The notes under the pieces: generated by a model | Seen by the model: only the letters and a program-made list of their open reading frames with translations | Told to the model about the DNA's origin: nothing | The model's database searches: none | Shown: positions 13,868-61,998 of the stretch, piece by piece | Numbering within the stretch: the first letter of the stretch is position 1 | How the letters are laid out: each line of letters opens with the position of its first letter | Position numbers and translations under genes: made by a program | Source: Triparma columacea | Taxonomy: Eukaryota; Sar; Bolidophyceae; Parmales; Triparmaceae | Assembly (NCBI GenBank): GCA_030267965.1 | Contig: BRYA01000100.1 | Location: 22,085 to 86,084 of the forward strand | DNA length: 64,000 bases | Direction of reading: 5' to 3'

Positions 13868-16800
13868 ATGGTTTGCAGTCGAGTGAAAGTGTCTCATATT
13901 TGCCTAATCTTTTGGACCTGCTTAGTCCTAGTCGGAGGGAGGTCATTGGGTGAGGTGAATGTGGTCGATATGAACGGGCTGTTCAACACCGTCAGTAATT
14001 ATGCAACTACCAACACTGGCAACTCCATCATGGCGAATGATGACACTGTGGTTCTAGCTGTTGGGTCGTATAAATGCTCACAGGGGACTTGTGCAGATAG
14101 TTCTAACATGCTGTGGACAGATGACTTGAATGGAGAGGTCAAGTGTGTGGAGGACAACGCAAGCTGTGTGTTGGATGGAGAGAATACAAGAAGAGGGATT
14201 AGTGTGTATGGAACTGGGAGTGGTACACTTATTCTCCGAGCTCTCAACTTCGACAAGGGGTATGAATATGAAGGTGGAGGGGTTTTCATGGATAGTGCCA
14301 TAGTTGACTTGAAGCTCTGCGTCTTCTCCAACAATAGAGCTACAAGTAGTAGTTTTGGAGGTGGAGCAATTTTTGTTTGGAGTGGAACTATTAATATCTA
14401 CGGTTCATTCTTCAATGGAAACTCAGCAGACTCAGGAATTGGTGATGATATTTACAGGCTTGCTGGAACCATCACCATCCACAATACGTGCCCTTCTCCC
14501 TACTCCTCCAACACTCCAATCCAAGGTAAGACGAGAATGAGGATTGTGTAGTCTGTAGAACCATTCCTAACCCCACAACTCACTTTACGTTACCGCTGCA
14601 CCAACTCCTATTCCTACCTCTCGCAGGGTCCCGTTTGGACACTTACGGCACTGGCAATGGTGGACTCAACTGCAGAGAAGAGAACTGCAATTTTTTGGGT
14701 TGGGGTTGTGAAACAGTCTGTGACTTTTACTCTTACTCTCGTTGCTACTACTACTGCGATGCTGGGTACTACAACCCGACTGGCGGCGATTCAATTTCGG
14801 CTTGCCGAGCATGTCCCGCTGGTAAGTTTAGTACCATGAGCGGAATCACAAAGGAGTCCTCCTGCATCTCTTGTTCTGCCGGAACGTACAGCACGTCAAC
14901 TGGAGCTACAAGCAACGCTGCATGCGAAGATTGCGGCAAGGGGAAGTACAGTACATCAACAGGAGCCGCTACTTGCGAAGATTGCGGCAAGGGGAAGTAC
15001 AGTACATCAACAGGAGCGATATCTGATGCTACTTGCGAAGATTGCGAAAAGGGGAAGTACAGTACATCAACAGGAGCCATATCCGACGCTACATGTGTAG
15101 ATTGCGGTGAAGGAAAGTACAGCACATCAACAGGAGCGATATCCGCTGCTACTTGCGAAGATTGCGGCAAGGGGAAGTACAGTACATCAACAGGAGCGAT
15201 ATCGGCTGCTACTTGCGAAGATTGCGGCAAGGGGAAGTACAGTACATCAACAGGAGCGATATCCGCTGCTACTTGCGAAGATTGCGGCAAGGGGAAGTAC
15301 AGTACATCAACAGGAGCGATATCCGCTGCTACTTGCGAAGATTGCGGCAAGGGGAAGTACAGTACATCAACAGGAGCCATCTCCGACGCTACTTGCGAAG
15401 ATTGCGGCAAGGGGAAGTACAGTACATCAACAGGAGCGATATCCGCTGCTACATGTGTAGATTGCGGTGAAGGAAAGTACAGCACGTCAACTGGAGGCAC
15501 AAGCGAATCAACATGTGAAGGTGAGATGGGAGGATATGTAGCATGTAAGCGACTCCCCACTACAATATGCCTAATCCATTTACCCAATCCCTCACTTGTC
15601 ACAGCTTGCATTGCGGGAACATCCAGCTCTTCCATAGGAGCGACAAGTCCAGCCACTTGCACAACATGCCCCAAAGGTACCTACTCCGTAACGTCCTCTT
15701 CCTCCTGCACCGCCTGCCCGGCTGGCCGTTTCAATTCAGACGATGCCACTTCCCCAGATCTCCACACCGACTGCTCCATCTGCCAAGCTGGCAAGTACAT
15801 CTCTGATAAAGGAACCAATGCCACAAAGCATATAGAGTGCGATTTGTGCCCTCTTGGAAAGAGCAACGGCTACGATAATACTGACGCCAGCAGACACAAT
15901 TCGTTTGATGACTGCGAACCCTGTAATGTTGGGTACTACAATGACGTGGCTGGAGCTACAGTTTGCAAATCTTGCCCTGAGGGAAAGTCTTCAGGAGCTG
16001 GTTCGCCTGCTTGTTCTTCCTGTCCGATGGGTTATGCTTGCAATGACGACGGCACGCAAACTGCGTGTCCTACTGGAAAGTATAGGTGAGAAGGGGGGGG
16101 AACAAAGCGCATAGCGTCAACAATGTCACAAAGCAATGTCTTCAACTCTTCCTGAAGTTCACCGTTCACCTAATCCACTTATCTAACCGACCATCGACTC
16201 GTTTCGCTCGTCACCGCAGCGATGGGGGAACAGATGGCAAGTGTGAATCTTGTCTTTCGGGCCATAGGTGTCCTGGAGGAACGAAAGCAATGCCTTGCTC
16301 TCCTGGAAGTTTCCGAAGTGAGACATCATTGTCGACCGACGAATCGCGAAAATCTTGTGATCCTTGTGTAGCAGGAAGGTATCAAGGAGATGGCGGAAAG
16401 GAAGATTGTTCGGCTTGCCCTGAAGGATACTTCTGCACCGAGTCATCCACAGCTCCGATCCAATGCGGCAGCGTTGCTCTTTACTGTCCTACAGAGAGTC
16501 CCATTGTCAACGCTGCGACGTCAGGATACTACACTACCCCAACTAGCGCTCCCGCCGAAAATAGAGTTGCTCAACAGCGTTGTGAGGCCGGATTTGCTTG
16601 CGTAGGAGGCGTAAGGGAGGAGTGTGTTGAGGGCTCTACCTACCAGCCCAACCATTCTCAAACGTCCTGCATCACCTGCTCTACGTGTCCTGCTGGAACC
16701 TACGAGACCTCAGCCTGTACCACCACGTCTGACACTGTTTGTGAGCCCTGTCCTGCAGGTTTTGCGTGCTTGGAGGGTTTGAAGGCTCCCTGCACGGCAA

Positions 16801-19800
16801 CTTCCAATTACCAACCTGATCCCTCCAAGTCCTCCTGTCTCACGTGCTCTACGTGTCCTGCTGGAACCTACGAAAGGTTGGCCTGTACCACCACGTCCGA
16901 CACTATTTGTGAAGAGTGCTTAGCCGGTTCAGCCTCAATGGGAATCACCGCCACAGCTTGCGACTCTTGCACCGGCGAGGGCGAGTACTCTGACACCGAC
17001 CGTGCCCCAGTGTGCAAGACTTCCCCCGCCGGTCACAAGCCCACGGATGATCACACCAACATTGAACTTTGCCCCAAGAATACCTTCTCCATCGGAGCAA
17101 CCAACGAGTGCACGCCCTGCCCTTCCAACGGCCACTCTCAACCCGGCTCTTCCGCTTGTGAGCGGTGTTTGACAGGAAGGTACTTCAGCGAGCCAGACAA
17201 CAAGTGTGAACTCTGTCCCAAGAACACTTACACAATATCGGGGGCGACCGACATTAGCGGGTGTACCGGCTGCCCTCCTGGTGGCCACTCCGATCCTGGA
17301 TCCGGTTACTGCGAGCAGGTGAGAATAGTCGAGAAGTGAACGAGGTTGTGCACTTTGACACGCGAAGTTGTGCACTTTGACACGAGCATTATACAATCCC
17401 TCTTCCAGCACGCACCGCCCTCAACAATTCTAACCCACTTGCTTTGCTCGTCGCAGTGTTTGACTGGCACATACTTTCATGAGGCTTCCAATGATTGCCT
17501 TGCCTGCCCCTCAGGAATGTTCTCGGCGACTGGAGGAACAAGTTTCGACGATTGCATGGATTGCGACCCAGGTTTTGTCAGCGACGACGGCGCCGGTTTC
17601 TGCTCCCCCTGCCTTGCCGGAAATTACTCCAACCCAACTCAGACGGCTTGCCTCCTCTGCCCCTCCGGCAAATTTTCTGGCATTGCTGCCACTGACTGCA
17701 CCAATTGTGAAGCAGGCAAGTACACCAACCTTGGGGGTTCCGATGAGTGCTTCACTTGCCCCGACTACATGACATCAGACTCCGGATCAACCTCCTGCCG
17801 CTGCAAGGATAGCTTCCTGTCAATTGTTGATCCCGCCACCAATAAAACAACCTGCACCTGCGGTCCAGGAACAACGCTTGAGAACGGGGCTTGCGTGCCT
17901 TGCACCAACGGGTTCTTCAAATCGACCACATCCCTTGAAGCTTGCACCTCGTGTAACAAATTTGCTGTGAAGAATGCCATCCAGTCCAAGCGCCCCGCAA
18001 CCTCTCCCCTCTCCTGCATGTGCTCGCGAGGAGACTACAGGGTTCTTGAACCTCCAGAAGAGAGTTTAAAAGACCCAAATTCAACTTTCATAGGACAGTG
18101 CCTTCCTTGTCCCGAGGGTACTCTTTGCGACGAAGCCGGAGTGACAGTCGAAAATCTTCCTCTAGAAATAGGGTACTGGAGGAGCAGCCGTGATTCCTCA
18201 AACGTTGTGAGGTGCTACACGAAGTCTGCCTGCCTGCATCTCAACGATGACGACTCTGAAGACAAGCCCACCCTCTCTACCGACGACCAATGCGCCGATG
18301 GGCATACCGGACCCCTCTGCAACGTCTGTCAGCAAGACTTTGTCAAGTCAACCACGGGAGAGTGTTTGCAGTGTCAACCTTCCACCACTTCAGGCTCTGC
18401 AGCCTTATCCGTTCTAATACTCGTCGGCCTCCCTCTCCTAATTTTATACCTCGTAAAGAGGAGGAGGGCGAGAAAGAAGAAGGACATGGACAGAACTTCA
18501 ACTCTATCCGTCAGCGAGCAATTGAACGAAATGAGAAGCAACAAAAAGAGCAGGTTCCAAAGGTGGCGAACGAAGTTTAAGATTCTAACATCCTTCTACC
18601 AGATTGTGACACAGATGGAGGGTGTGCTGGGCATCCGATTTCCTCCGATCTTTGAGAACTTCGCCCGCTCCGTTTCGCGGATAGCCAATCTCTCCTTCCT
18701 TCACGTTGCAAGGGTGGACTGCATGATGAAGATCAACTTCTACACCACCTTGGCTACAATGACAATAGCTCCTTTAGTAGGTGGGCTCTTAATTGCCTTA
18801 GTGGGGTTCACTTTCTACAAGCGCACTTCCAACCCCGAAAAGAAGAAAGACATTTTGAAGGACACTAACGCTATCCTCCTCACCTTATCTTACCTTGTCT
18901 TTGCCTCCGTTAGCACTTCAATCTTTGAAACCTTCAACTGTACGACGTTCGGTGACGACGAAACTCGCTATCTAGTATCCGACCAGTCCGTAAGCTGCGA
19001 AACTAGCGAGCACAAACTTTGGCAGATCTACGCCTCAGTCATGATGTTCTTCTACCCCTTCGGAACGCCCCTCTTATACAGTTGGTTGCTGTGGAAGGAC
19101 AGAGAGGTGCTCAAGGACGACGAGGAGAGGGACAAGAACGAGAGTACCAACAAAAGCGCTTTTCTCTGGGACCAGTACTCTACCTCCTTCTGGTGGTTTG
19201 ACATATTCGATTGTGCACGCCGCCTCCTCCAAACCTCCTTCCTAATCTTCGTCTTCAAGGGCATGGCCTCCCAGATTGTTTTCGCAATGCTCCTCTCAGC
19301 CGTCTCCTCAGGTTTTTTCATCCACTGGAAGCCCTTCATTCGGGACTCCGACAACACCCTAGCAATCGCCTCCCAGTGCAGCATCTTCCTCACTCTCTTC
19401 TACGCCCTCCTTACTAAAGTGGGGGTAGATCAGGACGAGGATTACGATCAAGTTGCATTCGGTACACTTCTCATCGTCATCAACTTGCTTGGCGTCTTCA
19501 TGGTTGCATCTGCCGCTCTAATCAAGCCCGTGAAGAAGCTCCTCAAGGTCCTTGCGAGAAAACATCGCCACAACGCCCTGATCAAGGGGATCACGTTGAA
19601 TCATAGACCTTGGCCTGCGTTCGAAAAATACTTCTTCGAGTTAGTCAAGAGCACTGAGGAGACTGCGGGGTGGGAAAAGATCGATGCCAAGCATTTTGGA
19701 GGCGGGGGGAAGGGGCAGGCTTGGCTGGAGGAGACAGGCGTTGTCGCAGAGTGGAGGTGCAGCACAGGGGATGGGCCTATAGACCAGGGCAGGGTAGTTT

Positions 19801-29194: not shown

Positions 29195-29204
29195 CGTCTT
29201 AACA

Positions 29205-29441
29205 TTGGCGCAACTTCAGACTTACTGGCGCCTCCTCGGGATCGACCTTCAAGAGAGGGAAAAGGTTAGGAACGAACCCGAAGGTTGTGTAGAGGAGAAG
29301 TGCAATGCCCTGCTTAGGGACGCTACCAAGAGAAAGCGCGAGACCAGGCAAGAGATCGACAGGCTCAACGAAATGAACGAGTCAATGCAGCGAGCCCTCG
29401 GTCGAGTCAGCAACAATACGAGCAGCACTTCGTCGTCTTGA
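29205..29441 (+). pseudogene. Fragment resembling MAP65/Ase1/PRC1 N-terminus
   Basis: An open frame without a usable ATG encodes 78 residues. TYWRLLGIDLQEREKVRNE and the following charged helix (DATKRKRETRQEIDRLNEM) resemble the N-terminal coiled coil of MAP65/Ase1 microtubule bundlers. It ends after a Ser/Thr run and nothing further of the family follows. Its left edge abuts the truncated glycosyltransferase start. I read it as a broken gene piece. Confidence 0.35.
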
Positions 29442-29643
29442 TTCCAGGCACACGTTGGCATATCAACGAGTACAGAGAACCGTCTCTCTCTTTTGAAACA
29501 ACGGGAGTTGGCTCACTACTCACCGAGGACTGTCCTCTCTTCACCAACCCGCTCATTTACGTGACTATGATACAGACCTTCGTAGGGAACCTCCTCATCT
29601 TCTTCTTCCACATGGTCGTCATCCAACACACCGTGTGCGCAAA

Positions 29644-30174
29644 ATGTCCAGGCCTCCTAGTGACGGAAAGGCCCGGAATCTGGGGCTGGCTCCCCTTCCT
29701 CCCCTCGTTGCTGCTCGTCACGGCCCACTCAAAAGGGACCCAAATCTATCAATTGGTGAACGCGCCTTCAAAGAATGCTCCTCCCTCACGGCCATCACCA
29801 TCCAGGACTCGGTGACCACGCTTAGATATCACGCCTTCCACGGATGCACCGCCCTGACGAGACTCAGTTTATCTCCTGCCGTCTCCATCGATGAATTCTG
29901 CTTCTCAAACTGCACTGCCCTAATCTCTGCCGCTACCGATCAAAATATGCCGACTGTCTCGGCCCTTCTCCATTCTAGGTGGCACCGCATACGTGAACGC
30001 GTCAACGCTCTGCTGTGCCTCAAGGGAACCTGGGATCACGTGGAGAATCCACCGAGGAGATCAGCTAGGAAGCGGAAGACAATTGACGGAGTTGAAGCCC
30101 CCGCGCTAAGGGAAACTGAGGCACGTCAGAAGATCCCGAAAGTTTTGTGGAGAGAGATTCTGGAGTTTCTGTAA
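29644..30174 (+). CDS. Short BspA-type LRR protein, likely truncated paralog
   Basis: From the ATG at 29644 the frame gives 176 residues. Only about two BspA-type leucine-rich repeats remain (ERAFKECSSLTAITIQDSV, HAFHGCTALTRLSLSP). They are followed by a C-terminal module shared with the gene at 60629-61576: CFSNCTALISA, DQNMPTV, LLHSRWHRI, a basic PRRS stretch, and an ending WREILEFL. The full-length paralog has about seven repeats, so this copy has lost its N-terminal half. The frame before 29740 does not look like LRR sequence. It may be a pseudogene or a short functional relative. Confidence 0.55.
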   Translation: MSRPPSDGKARNLGLAPLPPLVAARHGPLKRDPNLSIGERAFKECSSLTAITIQDSVTTLRYHAFHGCTALTRLSLSPAVSIDEFCFSNCTALISAATDQNMPTVSALLHSRWHRIRERVNALLCLKGTWDHVENPPRRSARKRKTIDGVEAPALRETEARQKIPKVLWREILEFL

Positions 30175-30441
30175 CTCTAAAATCAATGTTGAACAATGTA
30201 GGCAAGAAACGTGTATTGGTCTTTAGCTCTTTTCAGAGGCGACATGCTCATGCTGCTCCCTGAGCTATTTTTTAGTAGGTACGCTCTTACAAGTAGAGGG
30301 AAAATGAAGAAAATGAGGAAAAAGAGAAAGGCTTTGGAGACTTTGAGATGATTTGGGCATTATTTGCCAAGAACTGTATTATAGCACATAATAATACTTT
30401 TTACAACAACAAAACGCTTCACAAAACCAACAACAATACTA

Positions 30442-48155: not shown

Positions 48156-49963
48156 ATGAGCAGCAAGTACACGAAGAGCTTCAAAGTCCCCACCAACATG
48201 GCGTCGGTGCTGACGGACCTGACAAGAGAGCTTTTGAGGGTCAGCACGTGAGTGCGGAGGGGAAAAGGTTGGGGGTTTAAACTTTAGGTTGCACGACCAG
48301 GGTAATTTTCGTTACCACGGAGCTATAAGGAGCAACAATCCAGGAAATTCGTGCCCACTTTATATTCCAACGTCTCTCTCTAGGGGAGTTTGAGGTTTCC
48401 ACATGAGGGGAGAAGGGGTGGTGAGGGTTGAGTTGTTTTGAGTTGTGGGTCGTCGCCCGTCAACCCTGTCCCCCCCCACCTTCTCACCCATCCCATCATC
48501 CAACCCCCTTCCCGTCTCTCCAGCTATTCCAACGACATTAACGAGCCCGCCGACTTGTACGCCTTCTCCTACACTCACTTCATGCAACTGATTGAAGCCC
48601 GAGATGCTGCTGGGACTGCGGGGGATGGCCCGGAAGTGAAGATGTCTAACGACGAGCTGATCGATCGCGTGGGGTCCCTCTTCGCCGAGGCCGATGCGGA
48701 CGGCAACGGGTACCTCGACCGAAAGGAGTTCAAGGCCGTTTTCACATCACTCAAGGAGGAGCTTGGACTTTCGAACAAGGTCATTAAGCAGATTATGGCC
48801 GAGGCCGACGAAAATGACGACGGAGTTATCGAGTACAGGGAGTTTGTGCCCATGGCGGTTGACGTGATCAACGTTATGGAGGCCAAGGCTGACTTCAGGG
48901 AGAACAAGATTCTTGACAAGGAGGAGGCGCTCGAGGACGCCAAGGACTTCTTGTTGCACGGCATGCCGAGGGATACACTGGAGGATATGCTGAAAAACTC
49001 CTTTATAAAGGCGGACAAGGACAAGAGCGGATACTTGGACAGGAAAGAGTTCAAGGTATGCCTGAAGTCCAGCGGTCTCGGATTTACCAAGAGGGAAATC
49101 AACGTGATGATGACGGAGGTGAGAAGCGGGGAAGAGGATGGCGAAGGCCAGAGGGTTGACCACCTCGTCACCCGACCCCGAGAGAATACTTGGGAGGCGC
49201 ACATTTCAAAGTCATAACAACCCTAACCTCGATACGACCCTTTTCCCGTCCCTCCACCTTGCAGGTTGATCTCGACGGGGACGGAAAGATCACGTACGAA
49301 GAGTTCGTCCCCCTTTGCTTCTCCATGCTCGCGGACATGATGGCGGACAAGATGGAGCAAGCGGCCACTGAAACTGAAGAGTCGATAACTGAAACAATAA
49401 TCGAGCTGTTTGAGGGAAGCGGCTTCGAGGAGGGCTCTACCATGGTGAATAAGAGTGTGGCCACGTCCATCCTGAGGGACGGAGATCTTGGCCTCACCAG
49501 GGTTCAGATTGCTGCCATTATGAGCGAGCTCACAATTGACAAGAAGAACATGATCGACTACAACGAGCTCGCCAAGTGCTGCGCCGGCGTCATGAGCGCC
49601 CTCATGAACGTGGAACAGCAGAGGCTCCTCGCCGACCAGATGAGCGACATGAGGGCGCAGGAGGACTACGGCACTATCCTCGGGCTCACCCAGGACCAGA
49701 TGGCCAGCAGCCTCGACGCTGGGTTCCGCGAGCTCGACACCGAGGGGTGCGGCTTGCTGAACCAGCAGCAGGTGTCCGACGTAGTCACACAGATCTTGGT
49801 TGGCCTCGAGGCACCCCACTACCAGGCCGTCATGTCCCTCGCCTGCCCTGACGACGAGGGAAATGTATGGTATGATGATGTTTCAGAGTGGGCCTTCCAC
49901 ACCTTAGAATACCTTGTCAGTGGCCAGCACGCAGTCCTGAGCCCTAGAACGCAGGAAGATTAG
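48156..49963 (+). CDS. RIIa-domain EF-hand protein, RSP7-like
   Basis: Three exons (48156-48247, 48524-49118, 49265-49963) give 461 residues. The first exon begins MSSKYTKSFKVPTNMASVL and continues TDLTRELLR, spliced to DINEPADLYAFSYTHFMQL; this is an RIIa/Dpy-30-type dimerization-docking domain. Several EF-hands follow: ADADGNGYLDRKEF, ADENDDGVIEYREF, ADKDKSGYLDRKEF and VDLDGDGKITYEEF, with weaker ones beyond. RIIa plus EF-hands is the layout of Chlamydomonas radial spoke protein RSP7, so a radial spoke or other axonemal AKAP-binding role is likely. The second intron interrupts the fourth EF-hand just before its loop and is one of two near-identical introners in this window. Confidence 0.82.
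49119..49264 (+). mobile_element. Introner copy A (intron in the RSP7-like gene)
   Basis: This 146-base phase-0 intron starts GTGAGAAGCGGGGAAGAGG and ends CCCTCCACCTTGCAG. It matches the intron at 56604-56751 in 140 of 148 hand-aligned columns (6 substitutions, 2 single-base gaps), while the host genes are unrelated. A CCTAACC branch-point-like site lies about 40 bases before the acceptor. AGGT occurs at both exon-intron junctions, a possible short target duplication. No coding capacity, so movement would need a helper enzyme from elsewhere. Confidence 0.8.
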
Positions 49964-50033
49964 TGTCTCTGTGTGTGTGTGTCTAGGGCAGGGCTAAGTA
50001 AGGCGGAGTAAATTCAGTGTGACAGGTTTTTGT

Positions 50034-51226
50034 TCAAGTATTAGTGGTTTTCGTTATTTCTATCCCGCCATTCTCCCAATCCCAATTCTTCTCGATGTCC
50101 TTTTCTCTCTTGGGCACTCCCTTGATCTCTCTCATGCCCTTGAGAAACTTAAAGATCCTCCTCCTCCTAATCTTCTCTGTGTTTCCCACCTCAAAAGCGT
50201 TCGCATCGCAAGCTGCAAGCATCGTATCTAGCGCAACCTGCTCCCGCCCACCGCACCACACCACCCCCGACGCACAGGCCGCGAGGAACGCTGACAGCCT
50301 CGCCAGGCTGTCAGCCAGGGCTTCCTTGTGAGGGAGCTTGGGGCTGGCCTCAGAACGGTACTTGGAGAGTAGAAGGGAAAGGTAGGCGGGGAGGGGGGAC
50401 GCCAGCTGCGACGGGATGGAATCAGGAATCAAGATTAGGTCAGGATTAGTGTGTCGGACGCTCTCAACTGCACCCTTACCTTCATCTCAGCCTCAGGGTC
50501 AATCTGAAAGTCTCCCCCGGGCGGTGCTTCTGCTAAGGCCTTCTGCTTCCCCTTAACAATTTCCACAAGCTTCCCGTAGGCTTCTAGGTAGTCCCTCCTG
50601 TCAGCCAGGACCTTCTCAACTTTAGCACTTGGCTTCTCTTCACTCTTCTCACCACCCTTGTGCTTCTTCTCATCAGACGACAAACCCTTGAATGCCGCGT
50701 CTAGTCTCTGGTAGCTCTCCTCGACAGCGGCACATGCATCTTCAATGACCTTGAACTCCCCAGTCGTGAACCTCCCCCCCTTGTTGCTCCCGCAGAGCGC
50801 CATCACATTCTTCCTGTCTCCCGTCAAGAGCCTGCTGGAGCTCTCCGGGATGTTGTAGAGAGCGTGCTCATCCTTTGACACGGGGTGATTTCGGAGCTGG
50901 TCAATGTACCTCATTGACGAAGACAGCGTCAAATCAGAAAGAAGATCCTTACCCTTGATGAAGTCGAAGTAAAGGAGACCAAATTTCAAATCTGACGGGA
51001 CCCTAACCTTCTTAGGCGCCGTTACCAATACCCCCATGCCCCCAGCACCCCCTAATCTCCCAATACCTCTTGCGAAGGGATTGGGGGGACGAGCACTCAT
51101 GAGACTTGCCACGGAATTCGGAGTGAGTGGGACTGAATTTGATTCTATTGAGGAACTGTGGAGGGGTAGCGGACCTCGAGGTGGGCGGCCAAACAGCAGA
51201 CCGGCCGGAGGAGGGGGGAGGGGCAT
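50034..51226 (-). CDS. Conserved-looking protein of unknown function
   Basis: Exons 51226-50480 and 50405-50034 join over a 74-base intron to 372 residues. The N-terminal 60 residues are Pro/Gly/Ser-rich with basic residues (plausible organelle leader, not proven). A helical region follows: DLKFGLLYFDFIKGKDLLSDL, YIPESSSRLLTGDRKNVM-like segments, then a Lys/Glu-rich linker and FLAACASGVVWCGGREQVAL near the C-terminus. No domain recognised. The start is 76 bases from that of ureG on the other strand. Confidence 0.62.
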
Positions 51227-51302
51227 AGTTACGCGGTTCGAGATTATTTGACTCCTTGTTTATTTGATTTTCGGACTTGAAACACAAATTCCCCTATAGA
51301 TT
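51227..51302. promoter_or_regulatory. 76-base divergent promoter
   Basis: The unknown gene (leftward) and UreG (rightward) have start codons only 76 bases apart, the tightest divergent pair in the window. Confidence 0.4.
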
Positions 51303-52203
51303 ATGTCTGCACACGCTCATTCACACGGACACGATAATTGTTGCGACGGAGATGAGGTGAGACCGCCCTTTCCTCAGTTTGTTTGGAAGTCTGTCGATGT
51401 CGGTGTTTTTTTGAGAAGGATTCTTGACCAAATAACAGCTCCAACTCACCATTTTTTCACGACCGCAGGGACACGATCATGGCCACGATTCTCACCATCA
51501 CGACCATGGACACTCCCACGAGCACCTTGACCATCCTGGGAACTTTTCTGAGCGGGATACTGTCACAAAAAAGCCAAAACATCGCGATTACGAAGAGCGC
51601 GTGTTCACCGTTGGGCTTGGTGGCCCAGTTGGTAGCGGAAAGACCGCCCTGATGCTTGCCCTGTGCCGCAAGCTTCGCGACCACTACAACATTGCAGCAG
51701 TGACCAATGACATCTTCACTCGCGAGGACTGCGAGTTCTTGATCCGTAACGACGCCCTGCCCAAGTCCCGCATAGCAGCCGTCGAGACCGGTGGCTGCCC
51801 CCACGCCGCCATCCGCGAGGATATCAGTGGCAACCTCCACGCCTGCGAGACCCTGACCGCTCAGATTGACGGCCTCCAGATGATCCTCCTAGAGAGCGGG
51901 GGTGACAACCTGGCGGCCTCTTACTCCCCCGAACTTGCCGACTACACAGTTTACGTGATCGATGTCGCCGGGGGGGACAAGGTGCCCCGGAAGGGGGGAC
52001 CTGGGGTCACGCAGAGTGACCTCCTCGTCATCAACAAGACGGACCTAGCGGAGAAGGTGGGGGCGAGCCTGGAGGTCATGGACAGGGACAGCAAGCGCAT
52101 GCGCGGCGACGGACCAACGGTCTTCGCTCAGTGCAGGGAGAATTTGGGGGAGGGGGTGGACGAAATCGTCAACCACATCTTGAATGCTTGGATGGAAAAG
52201 TGA
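51303..52203 (+). CDS. ureG: Urease accessory GTPase UreG
   Basis: Exon 1 (51303-51356) and exon 2 (51469-52203) join to 262 residues. UreG is the SIMIBI-class GTPase that drives nickel insertion into urease with UreD/F/E. The N-terminal 50 residues are very His-rich ([29 protein letters not shown]), a nickel-binding extension as in plant UreG. The P-loop is [13 protein letters not shown]; further signatures are [55 protein letters not shown] and INKTDLA. All catalytic motifs are intact. The intron splits the His-rich region from the rest. No other urease gene lies in the window. Confidence 0.95.
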
Positions 52204-52314
52204 GCGCTTTGGATATGTTAGAAGGGAGAGGGATGGCACCCCGACAGAGATTAATAAAAAGTTTTGACAATGGCATTTTGGCGAGAAACAAAGTTTGCGT
52301 CTCATTACGCTCCA

Positions 52315-53213
52315 TCAGCCCCCTCCTCTCCTCACCCACTCTAGCACTCCCTCTACATTAAAACCCGTGAAGGCGCTCAGCTCGAAGACCTTCGCCACAT
52401 CCTCCTCCGGCTTCTTGGCGTACTTCGCGTACTCCTCGCAGAGCTTCGCGAGCCTGAGGTGGTTGTTGAGGGAGGCGACCTGCGTGGGGTTCGAGAGGTC
52501 CGCCTTGTTGAGGATTATGGCGACCGGCTTCACGTCCTTGCTCTTCCTCTGCATGAGGACGTTGAACAGATTACACAGCTCCACCTTCGCCTGCGACAAC
52601 CGGGTCAGGGATGAGCTGTCTATCACGAACCATATTGTGGCCGAGGCTTCAAAGTACTGAGGCCACATCGGGGCCAGGGAGGAGCCGACCTCGGTGATTG
52701 TGAGGGGGAGGGAGTCGTACGTGCACGAGCACTTCTCTACCCCCACAGTGGGGAACGTCGAGACAGTGAGGTTAGGGAGGGACTTGAGCTGCAGCTGTGC
52801 GGAGTTCTTCTTAAGCTTCCTCATCGTGAAGACTTCGCATTGCCGGACGAGCGACTTGAGGAAGAGGGTCTGCGAGAGCGAGGCAGCAAGCAAAGCGAGT
52901 CGCGCAAAGGGTTAGGTCAGAGCATAAGACACAGGACCCCCACAGTATTGTAGCGAAATCCCCCTGTTCTCACCTTCCCGGAAGACGCAAGACCAATCAA
53001 GAGGATAGCGTGCGTCTTAAGCATTAAATTCAGCGCCGATGACGACGACGTAAGCTTGAAGCTCCCCGAAAGGTATTTCACCAATCTCGTCTTCTTGTCC
53101 ATGGCATTCTTGCCATCGTTAGTTCCTATCTGGTTGTAAACCGCTGTCTGTGAGATGGCGTTAGAGGATTGTCTAACCATGGGCATGGTGCCGTTGTCAT
53201 CATTAGTCTTCAT
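52315..53213 (-). CDS. ARL16-like small GTPase
   Basis: Exons 53213-52974 and 52869-52315 join to 264 residues, with the 104-base intron inside the P-loop codons (LIGLASSGK|T). The other G motifs are degenerate: the switch II region reads TITEVGSSL where most ARFs have WDxGGQ, and the base-binding motif is ILNKADL. These features fit the ARF-like ARL16 subfamily, linked in animals to cilia and membrane traffic. A 60-residue N-terminal extension without a clear motif is present. The gene converges on ureG (112 bases between stops). Confidence 0.6.
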
Positions 53214-53524
53214 GGGGTTATCCAGGGAGTTTAGTTCACCCTAACTGACCAGGGGGAGGGTGGGATTTGGGTTAAAGAAGCAGAAGGGCCGAGAAAGCGG
53301 CGGCGAGGGTCGGGATTATAGAATTTATGGAGGAACACTATTCGAAAGAGCGCCTGTTGACAATGTTTTGGTGTGATAAAATTGGGGTGACCAAGGCAGA
53401 GGCAGAACAGTTTCTTGAATTCTCTTGGCTTTGCAAAGCAAAACAAGAAGGCGAAAGCGAGTTGATTTGTTGTTGTTGTGAATAATGACTATTAAATATT
53501 TGGGAAGGGGGGGGGAGAGAAATT
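53214..53524. other. Intergenic region
   Basis: This 311-base spacer lies between the start of the ARL16-like gene and the stop of the ZIP gene, both leftward. It must hold the GTPase promoter and the ZIP 3' end. No other feature was seen. Confidence 0.5.
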
Positions 53525-55002
53525 CTACATTTCGTCGTGGCCGTGATCGTGGTGGTCATGGTGGTCGTGGTCATGGTCTTGGTAATGTTGTCCGATTTCC
53601 TCATGTTGTCCAACCCCGTGTCCGTGTCCATGCCCGTGTCCGTGTCCGTGTCCGTGCCCGTGTCCGTGCCCATGTCCATGATGTCCCCCCATATCCTCCA
53701 TAACCTTGACCGCCCACAGGCACCCTACCCCCGCCACGAATCCTGCCGCCACCCCCCACCTCCCCCCCCCCCCCCCCACGGCGTCAGAGAGCAGAGTCAC
53801 GGCCCCTAGGTACAGGAAACCACCAGAGCAGAAGGGGACGAGGAGGAAGGAGAGGGAACCGTCGAGGATTGTGGGGGCTAGGAGACCGAAGATACAGCCA
53901 AGGAGGGCGCCAACCGCGGTGACCATTTGCGCGAGGATGGCTTGAGACTAGGAAGGGGGGATGGGGGGGGAAGGCAAGGGGTTAGGAAAGTTAGCGTGAG
54001 CGTGAGGAGGGTGGCGGCGAGTGTGCATGTGTGGGGGGGGTGGCTGCATTTTGGTCCAAACACCAAACACAGTTCTATCTCTCTCTTGGCTCTTGGCTCT
54101 TGGCTCACCTTTGACATCCCCTCACTTCTCAGAACCGCGTAGTCACCCATCTCGTGGGGGACTTCGTGTAGCAGCACGGACATGAAGGCCGTCATGGAGA
54201 AGGTCGTCGACGAGGACAGTCCCAGGAATAGGCCGTCAGTGAAATTGTGCATGAGGTCACCGAGGAGGTTCAGCAGTAAGGCAGAGGAATATCCGGCGGG
54301 GGAGGGGGAGGGATGGTCGAGGGAGGGTTCCCCCACCTCCGGTATCATCTTTGTCGCCCCCTCTATCGCCTCAGTGTCCACTACCAGCATTTGCTTGGCC
54401 CTTTTCTTGATCTTGTTACCTTCATCATCCTCTGCCGTGACCCAGCCCTTTCCGCTGCTCTTCACGACGTACGTGGTGGGTACGTCGCCTTCCGAGGCGT
54501 CGAGGTCACCGTCTACGACGACGGTCAGCCCCGGTCGGCGTGACTCAGGCACGGAGGAGAGGAGGGATGTGGAGGTGAGGCTCACCATGTCCTGGATCAA
54601 ATCCTCTGCTGACAAAAGGGCGGCCGCAATATCGCCCCCGTCACCAACCCCGTCACCAGCACCCTCACCGTGAGAGTGACCGGCGTGGCCGTGACCTCCA
54701 TGCCCCCCTCCCTCCCCCCCGTTGGTGATGAGATTGAGGAACAGGAACATGAGGAAACCTGCAACCACAGCCAGCCCAACATCATCAGGTTCCTCAGCCT
54801 CATTGAAAGCTGAAGGCAGGCTATGGATGAAAACGTCACCAATTAGCCCCCCAGCAGACAGGGCCTTGGCGGCATTTAGGAGGGTGGAGGACTTCCCAGA
54901 GGCAGCTTTTGGGAAGAATAGGAGGAGGAGGGTTGGAGCGATGGAGATTACTACAACCTGAAGGATGGCAGATTGGGAGGCTGTGAGAGTAGAGAGATCC
55001 AT
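53525..55002 (-). CDS. ZIP-family zinc transporter (SLC39A7/KE4-like)
   Basis: Exons 55002-54109 and 53947-53525 join over a 161-base intron to 438 residues. ZIP transporters bring zinc or related metals into the cytosol from outside or from secretory organelles. The metal-site helices are intact: HNFTDGLFLGL in TM4 and LLHEVPHEMGDYAVL in TM5, the latter typical of the LIV-1/KE4 branch. TM2 carries GDVFIHSLP. There are two His-rich segments, one in the loop after TM3 (GGHGGHGHAGHSHGEG) and a long HG-repeat plus DHDHDHHDHHDHGHDEM at the C-terminus. A large variable loop of about 120 residues separates TM3 and TM4. Confidence 0.92.
53618..53681 (-). repeat. 6-bp repeat encoding (His-Gly)n
   Basis: A GGACAC/GGCATG-type hexamer array on the minus strand encodes about ten His-Gly pairs in the ZIP C-terminal tail. 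Confidence 0.85.
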
Positions 55003-55374
55003 CGCTCCAAGTTAGAGAGGAAGTGCTAGAGTCGGAGGAACGATTCAGTACAGAAGACACGGACTGGGAGAGAGAGGGAGTAATGTGGATCGAGGAGAGG
55101 GGAGAGGTTAGGGTGAAGGTCTGCGTTTGTGACGAAGGGAGAGAGAGCTGGAGGGTTTGCAGGTGAAGGGATTGCTGCACGAGCCAGATACGGGAAAGAA
55201 GAGGAGGAAGATTGGTGAGGGGGAAAGTCTGATTTCGTCAGGAAAACTATGGAGAACAAAGGAGAAAAATGGGAAGGCTGATGAAGCACAAACCAGGCAA
55301 GTGCAGATCATTTCTGCCTTCCTTTTTTGATATACCGTACAATACAATATAAATACAGTACATACGGTCTAATT
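55003..55374. promoter_or_regulatory. Divergent promoter region (ZIP / TrpEG)
   Basis: This 372-base region lies between the start codons of the ZIP and anthranilate synthase genes. It is AG-rich on the ZIP side and AT-rich near TrpEG (repeated TACAATA/ATACAGT around 55335-55365). No exon was recognised. Confidence 0.4.
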
Positions 55375-58275
55375 ATGAGATTCTACACCTCGTTGACACT
55401 GTTCATCTCCTTGATATCACTAACAACATCATATATCACAACATGTAACCCTGCTCCGACATTCATCTCCTCCCTTTCCTCTTTTCATCCTCCTCAACGT
55501 CTCTCTTTGCGATATCAAACTAGATATCAGACATCAGAACGTACATCACCAACCCGTACACACACAATGATCCTAAAATCTGCACCATCAGACTCACACT
55601 CACCACAACCTACTAAAAAAGGAGTTAAGAAGACTGGAGGAACAGGAGCTGTACAAGTAGCTGACACGGCACAATCACTCGGACTATCACTAGGAGCACC
55701 GACGGGACGCCCGACGGGGGGCCACTACCTTACCAAGGGTGGAGTGCAGATAACCACCGATGTCCAGCCTCTTGAATTCTCCCTAGACAAGAATGCCAAG
55801 ACCGGGTCAGCCTTTGCCATCGAGGAGCTAATTACAAAGCTAGACAATAGGAGGGGTGTCCTCCTCCAGTCCTCCTACGAGTTCCCGGGCCGCTACTCGC
55901 GCTGGTCGCTAGGTTTCGTTGACCCCCCCTTGTCAATAACTGGTCGCGGGCGCACCTGCACAGTCCAGGCGCTGAACGCTAGGGGCCTCGTCATACTGCA
56001 GGGCGTCAGGTCGGCCATTGAGAAGCTCAGGCTCCAGGGCGACGTCGTCAGCGTCGGGGAGGAGAGGGGCGAGAACGACTGGCAGGGCGAGGGGGCTGAG
56101 GCCAACACCCTCCACTGCGAGGTGGCGGGGACACCGCCGCCGGGATCGTTCGAGGAGGAGGACAGGAGCAGGCTCCCGAGCCTCTTCTCTATCGTCAGAG
56201 CGATCAGGGAGGAGTTCGGGTACCAGAGCTCCGATGGGCAGCTGGGACTTTACGGTTCTTTCGGGTACGACCTAACGTTCCAGTTTGAGCCCATTGAGTT
56301 CAAGAGGGACAGGGACGAAGAGCAGAGGGACCTGGTGCTCTTCCTCCCCGACCAGGTCACCGTGGTCGACCAGGACAAGAGGGACGCTTGGACTATCAAC
56401 TACGACTTCTCAATTAATGACAAGTCTACCTCCGGCCTACCCCGCGGCGGAACCGAGATCCCCTTCCAAGAACACGATGGGTCCGCATTCGAAAGAAGGG
56501 ACACGCCCGAGGGGAAGTTCGCGGACGCGGTGGACAAGGCTAAGAGGGAGTTCGCGGTAGGCAACTTATTCGAAGCCGTCATCAGCCAGACTTTCAGGGA
56601 GAGGTGAGAAGCGGGGAAGAGGATGGCCAAGGCCAGAGGGTTGACCACCTCGTCACCCGACCCCGAAAGAATACTTGGGAGGCGCACATTTCAAAGTAAT
56701 ATACAACCCTAACCTCGAAACGACCCTTCCCCCCGTCCCTCCACCTTGCAGCCTCGACTCCAGCAACCCGCCCAGCAAGCTCTTCCGCAGGCTCCGAAAG
56801 CGCAACCCTTCACCCTACGGCTTCCTCATGAACCTGGGGTCCCAGGAGTACCTAGTAGGCGCGAGCCCCGAGATGTTCGTCCGTGTCGAGGAGGTGGAGA
56901 ACTCTGACCTCGGCAGGAGGGCCCTGAGGGTAGAGACTTGCCCCATCAGCGGGACGGTGGCGAGGGGAGCGGACGCCCTGGAGGACGCCAAGAACATACA
57001 GGCCATACTGAGCAACGAGAAGGAGGTGAGGGGAGGGGGGAAGGGAAGGACCATGGACAAGTCGGGACATGACAAGATCTTCGTTCGTCACCTTATACCA
57101 CAACTCACGCAAAACAAAACACCTTCGCACAGGAGTCTGAGCTTACCATGTGCACGGACGTAGACAGGAACGACAAGAGCAGGATCTGCGAGGCCGGCAC
57201 CGTCAAGGTGATTGGTCGTCGTCAGATTGAGATGTACTCCCGCCTCATCCACACCGTCGACCACGTCGAGGGGTACCTGCGCAAGGAGTTCGACGCCCTG
57301 GACGCCTTCCTCGGGCACACGTGGAGCGTCACGGTGTGCGGCAGCCCCAAGGCCTGGGCGACCCAGTTCGTCGAGGACACGGAGAAGTCAGCCAGGGCCT
57401 GGTACGGCGGGGCGGTGGGCCTGGTGGGATTCGACGGGGGCCTTAACACGGGCCTGACGCTGAGGACCATCAGGGTCAGCAAGGGAATCGCGGAGATAAG
57501 GGCGGGGGCGACCCTGCTGTACGACAGCAACCCTGTCGCCGAGGAGCTGGAGACCGAGCTGAAGGCCTCTGCCATAATCGACGCCGTGGTCAACAGCGGG
57601 GGGGGGGAGGAGGACGAGCAGGCAGGGGAGGGGGGGCAGGTGGAGATCAAGGAGCAGAACGTGGGGGAGGGAAAGAGGGTCATCATAGTGGACCACCAGG
57701 ACAGCTTCGTGCACACGCTAAGCAACTACTTCAGGCAGACGGGAGCGGAGGTGAAGACGCTAAGGAGCGGACCGGAGACTAGGAAATACCTGGAGAGGGA
57801 GAAGGACAGTATCGACCTCGTCGTACTGTCACCTGGACCAGGCAACCCAGACGACTTCGGGCTGAAGGACACAATGGAAACTCTGATCAAGCTGAAACTC
57901 CCTGCCTTCGGGGTCTGCCTAGGGCTCCAGGGAATGGTTGAATACTTCGGGGGAACCCTTAGCGTCCTAGGCTACCCCATGCACGGGAAGCCCAGCTCCA
58001 TCACCCTCGAGGGCGACAGCGGCGGTCTGTTCACCAGCCTCCCCAGCACCTTTGAAGTGGCTCGGTACCACTCCCTCCACGGGACCAAGTCCAAGATGCC
58101 CGCGGTCCTCTCCATCACGGCCCAGACGGACGACGGGGTAGTGATGGGAATCCAGCACAAGGAGCTCCCGTACGCGGCGGTGCAGTTCCACCCGGAGAGC
58201 ATTCTCACGAGCCCAGCACATGGGATGGCGATTGTGGAGAACGCGATAAGGACGCTCAAGTACGATAAGGCGTAA
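55375..58275 (+). CDS. trpEG: Anthranilate synthase, fused TrpE-TrpG
   Basis: Three exons (55375-56603, 56752-57025, 57133-58275) give 881 residues. The enzyme makes anthranilate from chorismate and glutamine, the first committed step to tryptophan. The start at the ATG 55375 gives a hydrophobic signal peptide ([18 protein letters not shown]) followed by a Ser/Arg-rich stretch, a bipartite plastid leader in complex-plastid algae. The synthase half has [48 protein letters not shown], and [11 protein letters not shown]. The glutaminase half has [31 protein letters not shown], the nucleophile in FGVCLGLQG, and FHPESI. The fused order matches the alphaproteobacterial TrpEG clade rather than separate plant-type subunits, suggesting gene transfer. 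Its first intron is introner copy B. Confidence 0.93.
56604..56751 (+). mobile_element. Introner copy B (intron in trpEG)
   Basis: This 148-base phase-2 intron is nearly identical to 49119-49264. The first 70 bases differ at one site only, and differences cluster in the last 60 bases. The donor GTGAGA, the CCTAACC site and the TTGCAG acceptor are all kept. Junctions read GAG|GTGAG and CAG|CCTCG, so only AG is shared by the two ends. Copy A is phase 0, copy B phase 2, in unrelated proteins, so descent from a common host gene is excluded. Confidence 0.8.
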
Positions 58276-58373: not shown

Positions 58374-59118
58374 TTAAAGATGTATCCTGCGGGAGGAGCG
58401 AAGCGACGACCGAGTTAGTGGATGTCGTGATGTGCATCGGTGTGTTACCTCGTCGCTCCGCTCCTTGTCGCCCTGCTCCTCCACGCTTTCCCCATTCTCA
58501 CCATCCCACATGTTGGGCTTTCATCTCAGGCCCCGCCGTCGTCCTCGGTCTGCAGTTGTTGTTGATCGACTTGTACCAATCCCTCGTCCCAGCATTGCCC
58601 CTGTACACTGTGCCCCCCAGGGACTCGTCCCTGTGAGGGCCGTTCCCTGGAGCTCGTGTTGCATTTTTCCTGGAGAGACTTGTTGGGGACAAAGTTTTCA
58701 ACTGAGGGGCCTTGTTTCTGTGGGGTAATTGGGATTTTCTTAGAGTTCCGAGTTGCATTTTCATGCTCCTAAGGCGCGCCGCCTTACTGTCAGGGTGGTC
58801 ATCCATATTATCTTTCATTGACCTGGTACTGCTAAGACGCGCAGCCTTGCTGTTAGGACGATCATTAACATTGTTGTTGATCGACCTATACCAGTCTTTT
58901 GTCCCCGAGGGCCATGCACTATACCTTCCGAGCGACTCGTCAAAGTGTGGCCCGTTACCTGGAGCCCTTGTCTTAACCTTGGACCTGTCAATAAAATCCC
59001 GCGAAGATTGACGCCAAAGAGGGGCGTCTGACTGTGTTTTTGGTCTGGAAGACGTGCTCTGATAGCCTCCGAATGTCTGTTTGAAAGTTTGGGGCTGAGA
59101 TTTCGGACGCAACGTCAT
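58374..59118 (-). CDS. Small repeat protein next to DNALI1, possibly flagellar
   Basis: Exon 1 (59118-58502) and a 13-base last exon (58386-58374) give 209 residues ending GWIHL; without splicing the frame ends one codon after W's first bases, at TGA in the donor. Two copies of a basic module are present: RAPGNGPHFDESLGRYSAWP with TKDWYRSINNN, and RAPGNGPHRDESLG with TRDWYKSINNN. A shorter repeat (PNSKAARL/PDSKAARL) lies between. Tyr/Trp/Gly-containing basic modules of this sort are common in microtubule-binding axonemal proteins, and the gene shares a 120-base promoter region with DNALI1, but the family is not recognised. The intron carries long matching inverted ends. Confidence 0.55.
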
Positions 59119-59238
59119 CTTGGGGGGGTAAAAAGGGATGCAAGAGGAAATTCTTTTTCCCTCAAATCTTTTGTCATTCATCAGCGGTTTTGGGCACCAG
59201 CTTGGGCCCACATTTTTGGCCCAACTGCTTTCTTGGCC
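59119..59238. promoter_or_regulatory. Divergent promoter of the repeat protein and DNALI1
   Basis: About 120 bases separate the two start codons. The arrangement suggests joint expression of the two genes. Confidence 0.4.
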
Positions 59239-60538: not shown

Positions 60539-60628
60539 TTCCCCCCCCCAAAAAATAAAATTGTTTTGTTCGTAAATATTTCGGGACCCTTTTTCATGCC
60601 GTTCAACAGTGACTTTAGAGTTAGTCCG

Positions 60629-61576
60629 TTACAGAAATTCCAGAATAACTCTCCACATATCCTTCGGGAGCCTCTTGAATGCCTTAGTTCCCTGAAGCGC
60701 GACCACTTCATCTCCGTCAAGGCGCTTCCGCTTCAGCCTATCCGATCTCCTGGGCTGGTCCTCCAAAAGTGTCTTGAGGCAGAACAGAACGGTGGCGCGT
60801 TCAAGTATGCGGTGCCACCTAGAATGGAGAAGGGCCTCGACAGTCGGCATATTTTGATCGGCAGCGGCAGAGATTAGGGCAGTGCAGTTTGAGAAGCAGT
60901 TGACACCGATGGAAACATCGGGAGATAGACTGAGTTTCGTTAGGGCGGAGCAATTGCTGAAGGCTAAAGCGCCAATCGTTGTCACTCCATCCGGGATTGT
61001 GATGGCTGCGAGGGAGGAGCATGCCGAGAAGGCGGACCAGTCAATCGACCTCACTGAGTCCGGAATTGTGATGGCTGCGAGTGAGGAGCATCCTACGAAG
61101 GCGCATCTGCTTATCGTCGTCACTCCGTCCGGGATTGTGATGGCTGCGAGGGAGCGGCATCCCGCGAAGGCGGACCAGTCAATCGACCTCACTGAGTCCG
61201 GGATTGTGATGGCTGCGAGGGAGATGCATTCACTGAAGGCGTATTCGCCAATCGTCGTCACAGAGTCCGGGATTGTGATGGATGCGAGGGAGGAGCATCC
61301 CCTGAAGGCGTGCATGCCAATAGTCGTCACTCCGTCCGGGATGGTGATGGCTGCGAGGGAGTAGCATCCGTAGAAGGCTTGATCGCCAATTGTCGTCACT
61401 CCCTCTGCAAAAGTCACCTCCGTGAGTTCCCATGGTTCATTATAGAATCTCTCTAACCCTTCGCCAGAGTATACTGCTGTTTTGGGAAGGGGAGAGTCCC
61501 CATCATCTGGGTCGTCATAGTCACCACCATCGTCATCACTATAGTCATCACCATAAGCAAAGTCTAATTCACTCAT
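60629..61576 (-). CDS. BspA-type leucine-rich repeat protein
   Basis: A single exon of 315 residues starts at the ATG at 61576. The N-terminus is acidic (DDYSDDDGGDYDDPDDGD). About seven BspA-like LRRs follow, each of 23 residues with the form ITIPDGVTTIGxxAFxGCxSLAA. The last 100 residues form the module shared with 29644-30174 (CFSNCTALISAAADQNMPTV, LLHSRWHRI, basic PRRSDRLKRK, and LPKDMWRVILEFL at the end, recalling an F-box helix). LRR_5 proteins are expanded in stramenopiles; roles are unknown. No signal peptide, so intracellular. Confidence 0.85.
   Translation of the reverse strand: MSELDFAYGDDYSDDDGGDYDDPDDGDSPLPKTAVYSGEGLERFYNEPWELTEVTFAEGVTTIGDQAFYGCYSLAAITIPDGVTTIGMHAFRGCSSLASITIPDSVTTIGEYAFSECISLAAITIPDSVRSIDWSAFAGCRSLAAITIPDGVTTISRCAFVGCSSLAAITIPDSVRSIDWSAFSACSSLAAITIPDGVTTIGALAFSNCSALTKLSLSPDVSIGVNCFSNCTALISAAADQNMPTVEALLHSRWHRILERATVLFCLKTLLEDQPRRSDRLKRKRLDGDEVVALQGTKAFKRLPKDMWRVILEFL
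60945..61435 (-). repeat. 69-bp tandem LRR-coding repeats
   Basis: Repeats of 69 bases encode the LRR units. Phrases such as gggattgtgatggctgcgag recur at constant spacing on the plus strand near 60994, 61063, 61132, 61201 and 61270. DNA-level similarity between neighbours indicates recent unit duplication. Confidence 0.85.
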
Positions 61577-61998
61577 TATAGGGATGGAGAGGATCTTTTA
61601 TGGCAGTGCTCGAGCTAGAGTATGCTGGGGTATTGCGTGAATGTTTAGATGGAGAGGAGGAGATTGAAAGTTAGGGATTTGGACGACGTAGTTTTGTTGG
61701 GGACCAAATTTGAGCTCAAACTACAATGTGTTTGGATATGGTGTAGGTAGTAGTATCGTTGTTGGTATTGTGAAGAGTTAGGTCGGTCGTAAAAGTATCT
61801 AAAGGTTATAACACAGCTTTCTTGCCAAAATGATGCCCAAATCTTTCCCAAAACCCCAAAAATGATGGTTTGAGGTTTTTTTGAGGCTCCAAAAAAGAAG
61901 CTAAAACAAAAGGCTGGGAGGAGACAACTCCTCCCGTAAACCTCAATTGTTTAGTATTGCAAAAGGTATACTTCGTTAACAACCAATATCTCCCCACA
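61577..61998. other. AT-rich intergenic region
   Basis: This 422-base spacer lies upstream of the LRR gene and downstream of the coiled-coil gene, both leftward. Apart from one perfect hairpin (listed separately) no feature was recognised. Short ORFs here lack coding character. Confidence 0.5.
61916..61935. other. Perfect 8-bp inverted repeat (hairpin)
   Basis: GGGAGGAG (61916-61923) and CTCCTCCC (61928-61935) are exact complements separated by ACAA. This would form a tight stem-loop in RNA from either strand, about 65 bases past the coiled-coil gene's stop codon. Function unknown; perhaps a 3' end or processing element. Confidence 0.5.

Follow-up and report, generated by a model that had tools for sequence, protein, structure and literature searches.

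Two near-identical introns in unrelated genes of the Parmales alga Triparma columacea point to recent intron copying

Introduction

The origin of new spliceosomal introns has long been in question, and few recent examples exist. The closest described cases include the introner elements of Micromonas, which are near-identical sense introns carrying their own splice sites at new positions in unrelated genes. In the part of that report drawn on here, reverse splicing, reverse transcription and recombination are proposed as their route (PMC3879977). Here, we analyze a comparable pair, introns a and b, in a 64,000-nucleotide stretch of the Triparma columacea genome (assembly GCA_030267965.1, contig BRYA01000100.1, forward-strand positions 22,085 to 86,084; hereafter "the window"). 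Intron a interrupts a gene for an EF-hand protein, and intron b interrupts trpEG, which encodes an anthranilate synthase fusion.

The Triparma introns resemble the Micromonas elements in near-identity, splice sites, sense orientation and unrelated host genes, and probably also in their new positions, but differ in number. About 6,100 copies in four populations are given for Micromonas in the same part of that report (PMC3879977), whereas groups of two to four were found here, together with a 3' end present in hundreds of introns. A 2022 survey counts, in the sections drawn on here, 548 introner families in 175 genomes (PMC9860276). Only families of at least four introns were kept, so that doublets such as a and b would go uncounted. 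The survey families share with the introns described here the similarity up to both splice sites and the location in non-paralogous genes, and they include stramenopile cases (Aureococcus, Florenciella). They differ in that 49 of 130 and 72 of 177 testable families had target duplications and inverted ends, whereas neither is the rule here. Isolated pairs of near-identical introns, also attributed to reverse splicing, are known from Oikopleura (cited in PMC3879977). According to the portion of text consulted, 4 such pairs were counted in some 75,000 introns, with both members within the same gene, whereas we found four groups in a small sample and in different genes. The comparison is rough because the methods differ, but the frequency here is far above that in Oikopleura.

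Results

Introns a and b are near-identical from donor to acceptor

Introns a and b were identical in 140 of 148 alignment columns and differed by six substitutions and two one-base gaps, in agreement with the first-pass annotation, which had been made from the sequence alone. The likeness spans exactly the stretch from GT to AG. As also claimed there, the flanking exons do not align, and the only exon letters in common are a GAG upstream. The spurious antisense peptide start that the annotation had noted is indeed common to both copies (MCASQVF). The two introns share a strand, their starts being separated by 7,485 bases, and the reading frame of each host gene is kept only if the intron is removed. 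Recent copying of an intron into an unrelated gene is well supported.

The searched assembly comprises 37.85 Mb in 789 contigs. A search with intron a matched b at E = 2e-58, and the whole-intron query found two genomic places in total (E-values up to 10); the first-pass annotation had named many copies as the result that would support a family. Their 26-base core, with up to three mismatches, was found in the same two places and no others. With only two copies genome-wide, a and b are a doublet and not part of a large family. Two copies with extended flanking similarity had been named beforehand as a pattern that would refute an introner family. The copies are two, but because their similarity stops at the splice sites, this is not the pattern observed.

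Candidate distant relatives of a and b in the sampled sequence were not convincing. A functional RNA inside the intron was likewise rejected: comparison of the window with Rfam gave nothing at gathering scores, and RNA folding of the introns was barely stronger than that of shuffled sequences (z = -1.6 and -1.1). A 30-mer from intron a had no match in viral and prokaryotic contigs.

Proteins of relatives fix both junctions

Both junctions are fixed by comparison with proteins of relatives. Splicing of intron a yields MMTE-VDLDGDG, and relatives read MMTEVDLDGDG across this site. Splicing of intron b yields FRE-S-LDSS, and a protein of Triparma retinervis (P0005) reads FRESLDSS. An RIIa domain is recorded in relatives of the EF-hand protein. 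With a query of 491 residues, TrpE is 91% identical to a protein of Triparma retinervis; it is 82% identical to a transcriptome protein with a listed name beginning "Bolidom", in keeping with a Parmales alga as the source.

For intron a, an assembly error is excluded, since a metagenomic open reading frame (ORF), P0124, independently contains the same exon, continues with the same 32 residues into the intron and has the same end point (P0124 represents a cluster of nine sequences, and the inspection covered this representative). At site b, the metagenomic ORF P0004 ends with FRER, where the TGA of the donor would stop the frame; independent confirmation for b therefore covers the first donor bases only.

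Other relatives are uninterrupted at the two sites, namely P0126-P0128 at site a (82% identical to the EF-hand protein over 73% of the query) and P0188 at site b (73% identical to TrpE). Because the sources of P0126-P0128 also hold ORFs that run straight into introns (P0124, P0004), the uninterrupted relatives, as judged from predicted proteins, probably represent empty sites. A further relative of TrpE, the metagenomic ORF P0008 (73% identical over half of the query), enters non-homologous sequence after AKRE, which suggests an intron located 17 codons upstream of site b.

Three further groups of near-identical introns

In addition to a and b (group F1), we found three more groups of near-identical introns, F2, F3 and F4, the members of each being spread over different contigs. 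F2 consists of two copies genome-wide. The one in the window is 97% identical, donor to acceptor, to positions 23641-23754 of contig C13, a phase-1 coding intron that splits one long frame. No continuing frame was found at the window copy. Because its splicing adds only a few residues before a stop codon, this copy would fall at the 3' end of the gene. In F3, the stretch C1:33883-34025 is copied in C226 (98%) and C142 (96%), and a 123-base part of it in C148 (91%), with unrelated flanks. The likeness of the C226 and C142 members ends 2-3 bases before the acceptor; the former ends with GTAG, and the latter carries extra tandem units. A stretch of F3 had no match in viral contigs. F4 pairs C1:78211-78303 (minus strand) with C752:61798-61888 (95%, from G|GT to CAG|), this being the one further near-identical place in the genome. 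The C752 copy has no evident continuing coding frame, and the C1 copy has two open phases, in one of which unspliced read-through is possible.

The nine copies taken as intact in F1 to F4 all have the form GTGAG...AG, and the donor is preceded by AG in seven cases and by TG in two. Seven are flanked by an open frame upstream and downstream, and six of these need splicing (the C1 copy of F4 does in only one of its two open phases). The F2 window copy and the F4 C752 copy have no continuing frame, yet show the same GTGAG and AG ends. Flanking DNA did not align between the copies in any of the four groups.

Measured by the practice of the 2022 survey (PMC9860276, in part), similarity reaches both boundaries and does not extend beyond them for a/b, F2 and F4, but not for the C148 fragment; the C226 and C142 members of F3 are within the boundary tolerance of the survey. 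Judged by flanking DNA, host genes are non-paralogous in all four groups, and a further group around window position 14526 was excluded as paralogous. These four groups are smaller than the survey minimum of at least four introns, with two members each in a/b, F2 and F4, and three introns plus the fragment in F3.

Recent copies are a minority of introns

Gene models were taken from a crude gene finder and include antisense shadows. They list 118 introns, 114 of them non-overlapping; 76 introns on this list served as queries against the genome, in sets of 19, 29, 21 and 7. As a control, queries were expected to match themselves: 27 introns in the set of 29 did and two did not, and all did so in the set of 21. 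The query's own place was not listed for the sets of 19 and 7, which therefore had no such positive control. A near-identical copy in an unrelated gene was found for 3 of the 76 introns (a, b and C1:33883). Recent intron copies are a minority of introns. No rate can be derived from F2 and F4, because they came from region searches and are absent from the intron list. All copy numbers are lower bounds, since the genome search scored only the best candidates (the best 40 of 163 in the set of 29) and the fetched sequence of 228 kb contains about 37 kb of N.

Three further introns with similar places elsewhere (window 14526, 16086 and 17319) lie in paralogous gene families. The first, 14526-14626, has 20 further places with 96-99% identity among the matches listed, and was rejected as a copied intron after inspection of four of them. 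In these four, intron and immediately upstream exon are alike and the downstream exon has diverged, perhaps due to gene conversion. The introns at 16086-16267 and 17319-17456 lie inside long matches between paralogous family members and were left out of the count of copies. Also set aside were local repeats in C200 and C1, which reach into exons or end within introns.

An intron 3' end with hundreds of genomic matches

Sampled introns often end with ...TCGCTTCGCTCGTCGCAG. The 18-base 3' end TCGCTTCGCTCNTCGCAG had 388 genomic matches with at most one mismatch (193 + 195), compared to 4 (1 + 3) for the reversed sequence. Exact matches numbered 67, and the first 17 of them, in 16 loci, were inspected. 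Fifteen end an intron with open flanks (23-150 bases upstream, 70-79 downstream) whose removal is needed for the frame, and the two others, both in L044, were assigned to no intron. Donors of the 15 introns were sought as AG|GTRAG in 12 cases and located by eye in three (L041, L045 and L048). The motif intron L050 is the C142 member of F3. Side observations concern tandem arrangements: L044 (G000:C106:8730-9180) contains two intron-like units head-to-tail, each with the shared 3' end, and a 3' end unit is tandemly repeated in L050 and L043.

The core CGCTTCGCTC occurred 13 times in 255 kb, 12 times in predicted introns and once in unlabelled sequence. It was never found in coding-labelled sequence of its own strand, although the crude gene finder so labelled 58% of the bases; two occurrences overlapped a coding label on the opposite strand. 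TCGCTTCG was present in 12 of the 118 listed introns, compared to 0.36 expected from a first-order model. A 22-mer of the 3' end motif had no match in viral contigs.

The "introner family" of the first-pass annotation stands in part. Many copies of the a/b intron do not exist in the assembly, but wider introner-like copying in the lineage is supported by the three other intron groups and by a 3' end shared hundreds of times.

Discussion

Intron copying and points against it

We consider it probable that a and b are copies of one spliceosomal intron, one of them recently inserted, and that they exemplify ongoing, genome-wide intron copying in a Parmales alga. One of the two would have entered an unrelated gene behind an AG, as a whole unit running from GT to AG, most likely by intron transposition. 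In this process, an excised intron would be reverse-spliced into another transcript, which would be copied to cDNA and then recombined into the gene. Such copying would yield small groups of near-identical introns, inserted mostly at AG| sites, and the shared 3' end may be a trace of it.

Several observations weigh against this interpretation. The a/b intron has only two copies in the assembly. These are just 7.5 kb apart on one strand. Random sites would be this close with a chance of about 2 in 10,000, and such closeness is not a prediction of reverse splicing. Introns a and b lack the shared 3' end and have no detectable kinship to other sampled introns, and their membership in the same process is inferred. 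Among the searched introns, 73 of 76 had no copy in an unrelated gene, and the set of 21 gave none apart from two weak partial matches. The AG before the donor is no independent evidence for 12 of the 15 motif introns, because it was used in delimiting them. Finally, near-identical copies of non-intron pieces are present in the window, and copying may therefore not be specific to introns.

Alternative routes

The closeness of a and b on one strand would be explained by templated copying at the DNA level, with a break in one of the two host genes repaired from a nearby stretch via short GAG/AG matches, and with survival in coding sequence of exact-boundary insertions alone. Near-identical stretches that end abruptly are indeed found in the window (55002-55195, 29195-29515 and 29517-29729, with copies in C72, C300 and C592, respectively). 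However, the F2 window copy and the F4 C752 copy still end with GT and AG in spite of having no evident coding frame, and the F2, F3 and F4 members sit on different contigs. Overall, we regard templated copying as unlikely. A non-autonomous DNA transposon, that is, a MITE-like (miniature inverted-repeat transposable element) introner with its own splice sites moved by a transposase, appears less likely still. Such introners have been described (PMC9860276, in the sections drawn on here), the ends of L048 are inverted and alike over 23 columns with one gap, and F2 and the C142 member of F3 contain inverted stretches of 16 bases (1 mismatch) and 17 bases (3 mismatches), respectively. The inverted stretches in a and b have just 7 bases, though, and terminal inverted repeats are not supported as a rule, L048 being the single clear exception. 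The two ends within an intron show no better pairing than ends taken from different introns, either in 74 sample introns of at least 100 bases (6.22 versus 6.25) or in 14 of the 15 assigned motif introns (8.0 versus 7.92). Direct repeats at the junctions of the nine intact copies measure 4, 2, 2, 2, 4, 2, 3, 2 and 1 bases and lack the constant length of a target-site duplication, which spans 3-9 bp in published cases. These variable repeats of 1-4 bases and the lack of an inverted-end rule fit the insertion of an excised intron.

Alternatively, two old introns could have been kept alike by gene conversion, or exon and intron could have been duplicated together in paralogs. The physical closeness of a and b fits this scenario, as does the existence of paralogous families with similar introns in this genome (window 14526-14626). 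It is nonetheless very improbable, as the exons around a and b cannot be aligned, the intron phases differ, and proteins of relatives pass site a without an intron. We rank the RNA route ahead of templated repair, and templated repair ahead of the transposon. A broader version of the RNA route, which we advance tentatively and consider rather doubtful, is that reverse splicing copies ordinary introns in general, and not just one or two selfish families, singly into new genes. Much of the intron set would then be a layered record of single copying events, with doublets such as a and b as its newest layer.

Novelty and significance

Introners are an established kind of element. As far as our searches go, Parmales is a new lineage for them, with an unusual low-copy style. 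In the open literature, mostly without subscription journals, "introner" was never found together with "Triparma", "Parmales" or "Bolido". None of these names occurs in the main text of the 2022 survey, its supplements lying outside the search (PMC9860276). Surveys demanding at least four copies overlook doublets. This alga may offer a chance to observe the birth of new introns. With recent low-copy transfers in a sister lineage of diatoms, source copy, empty site and new copy could be compared, and such a comparison would separate reverse splicing from transposon insertion and from templated repair.

Features of the window and copied stretches outside introns

Coordinates of the introns and of the surrounding coding sequence are collected in Table 1.

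Table 1. Introns and exons of the window considered in the text. Positions count from the first letter of the window.
Feature	Position	Strand	Remarks
EF-hand gene, exon upstream of intron a	48438..49118	+	open frame; exon start approximate
Intron a	49119..49264	+	GTGAGAAGCG...CACCTTGCAG, 146 nt, phase 0
EF-hand gene, exon downstream of intron a through stop codon	49265..49963	+	
trpEG, first exon region	55327..56603	+	open frame
Intron b	56604..56751	+	GTGAGAAGCG...CACCTTGCAG, 148 nt, phase 2
trpEG, exon 2	56752..57025	+	
trpEG, second intron	57026..57132	+	107 nt, dissimilar to a and b
trpEG, exon 3	57133..58275	+	includes glutamine amidotransferase part
Intron F2, second copied intron in the window	58387..58501	-	GTGAGAATGG...CCTCCCGCAG, 115 nt
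Open frame upstream of intron F2	58502..59211	-	

The copied stretches outside introns differ in context. The 194 bases at 55002-55195 are 99.5% identical to C72:17032-17225 and lie directly upstream of the start of a minus-strand ORF (53878-55002), which by eye we take to encode a ZIP-type transporter. The C72 copy abuts a donor-like GGTGAG, and the stretch is possibly a copied 5' exon. The stretch 29195-29515 (97% identical to C300) and the adjoining 29517-29729 (98.6% identical to C592) form a patchwork with abrupt ends. It is followed at 29762-30178 by sequence that is 80% alike to a repeat-protein family. The region 60545-61900 belongs to a very large gene family of repeat proteins, with 197 matches in one genome-wide search, many of which share contigs.

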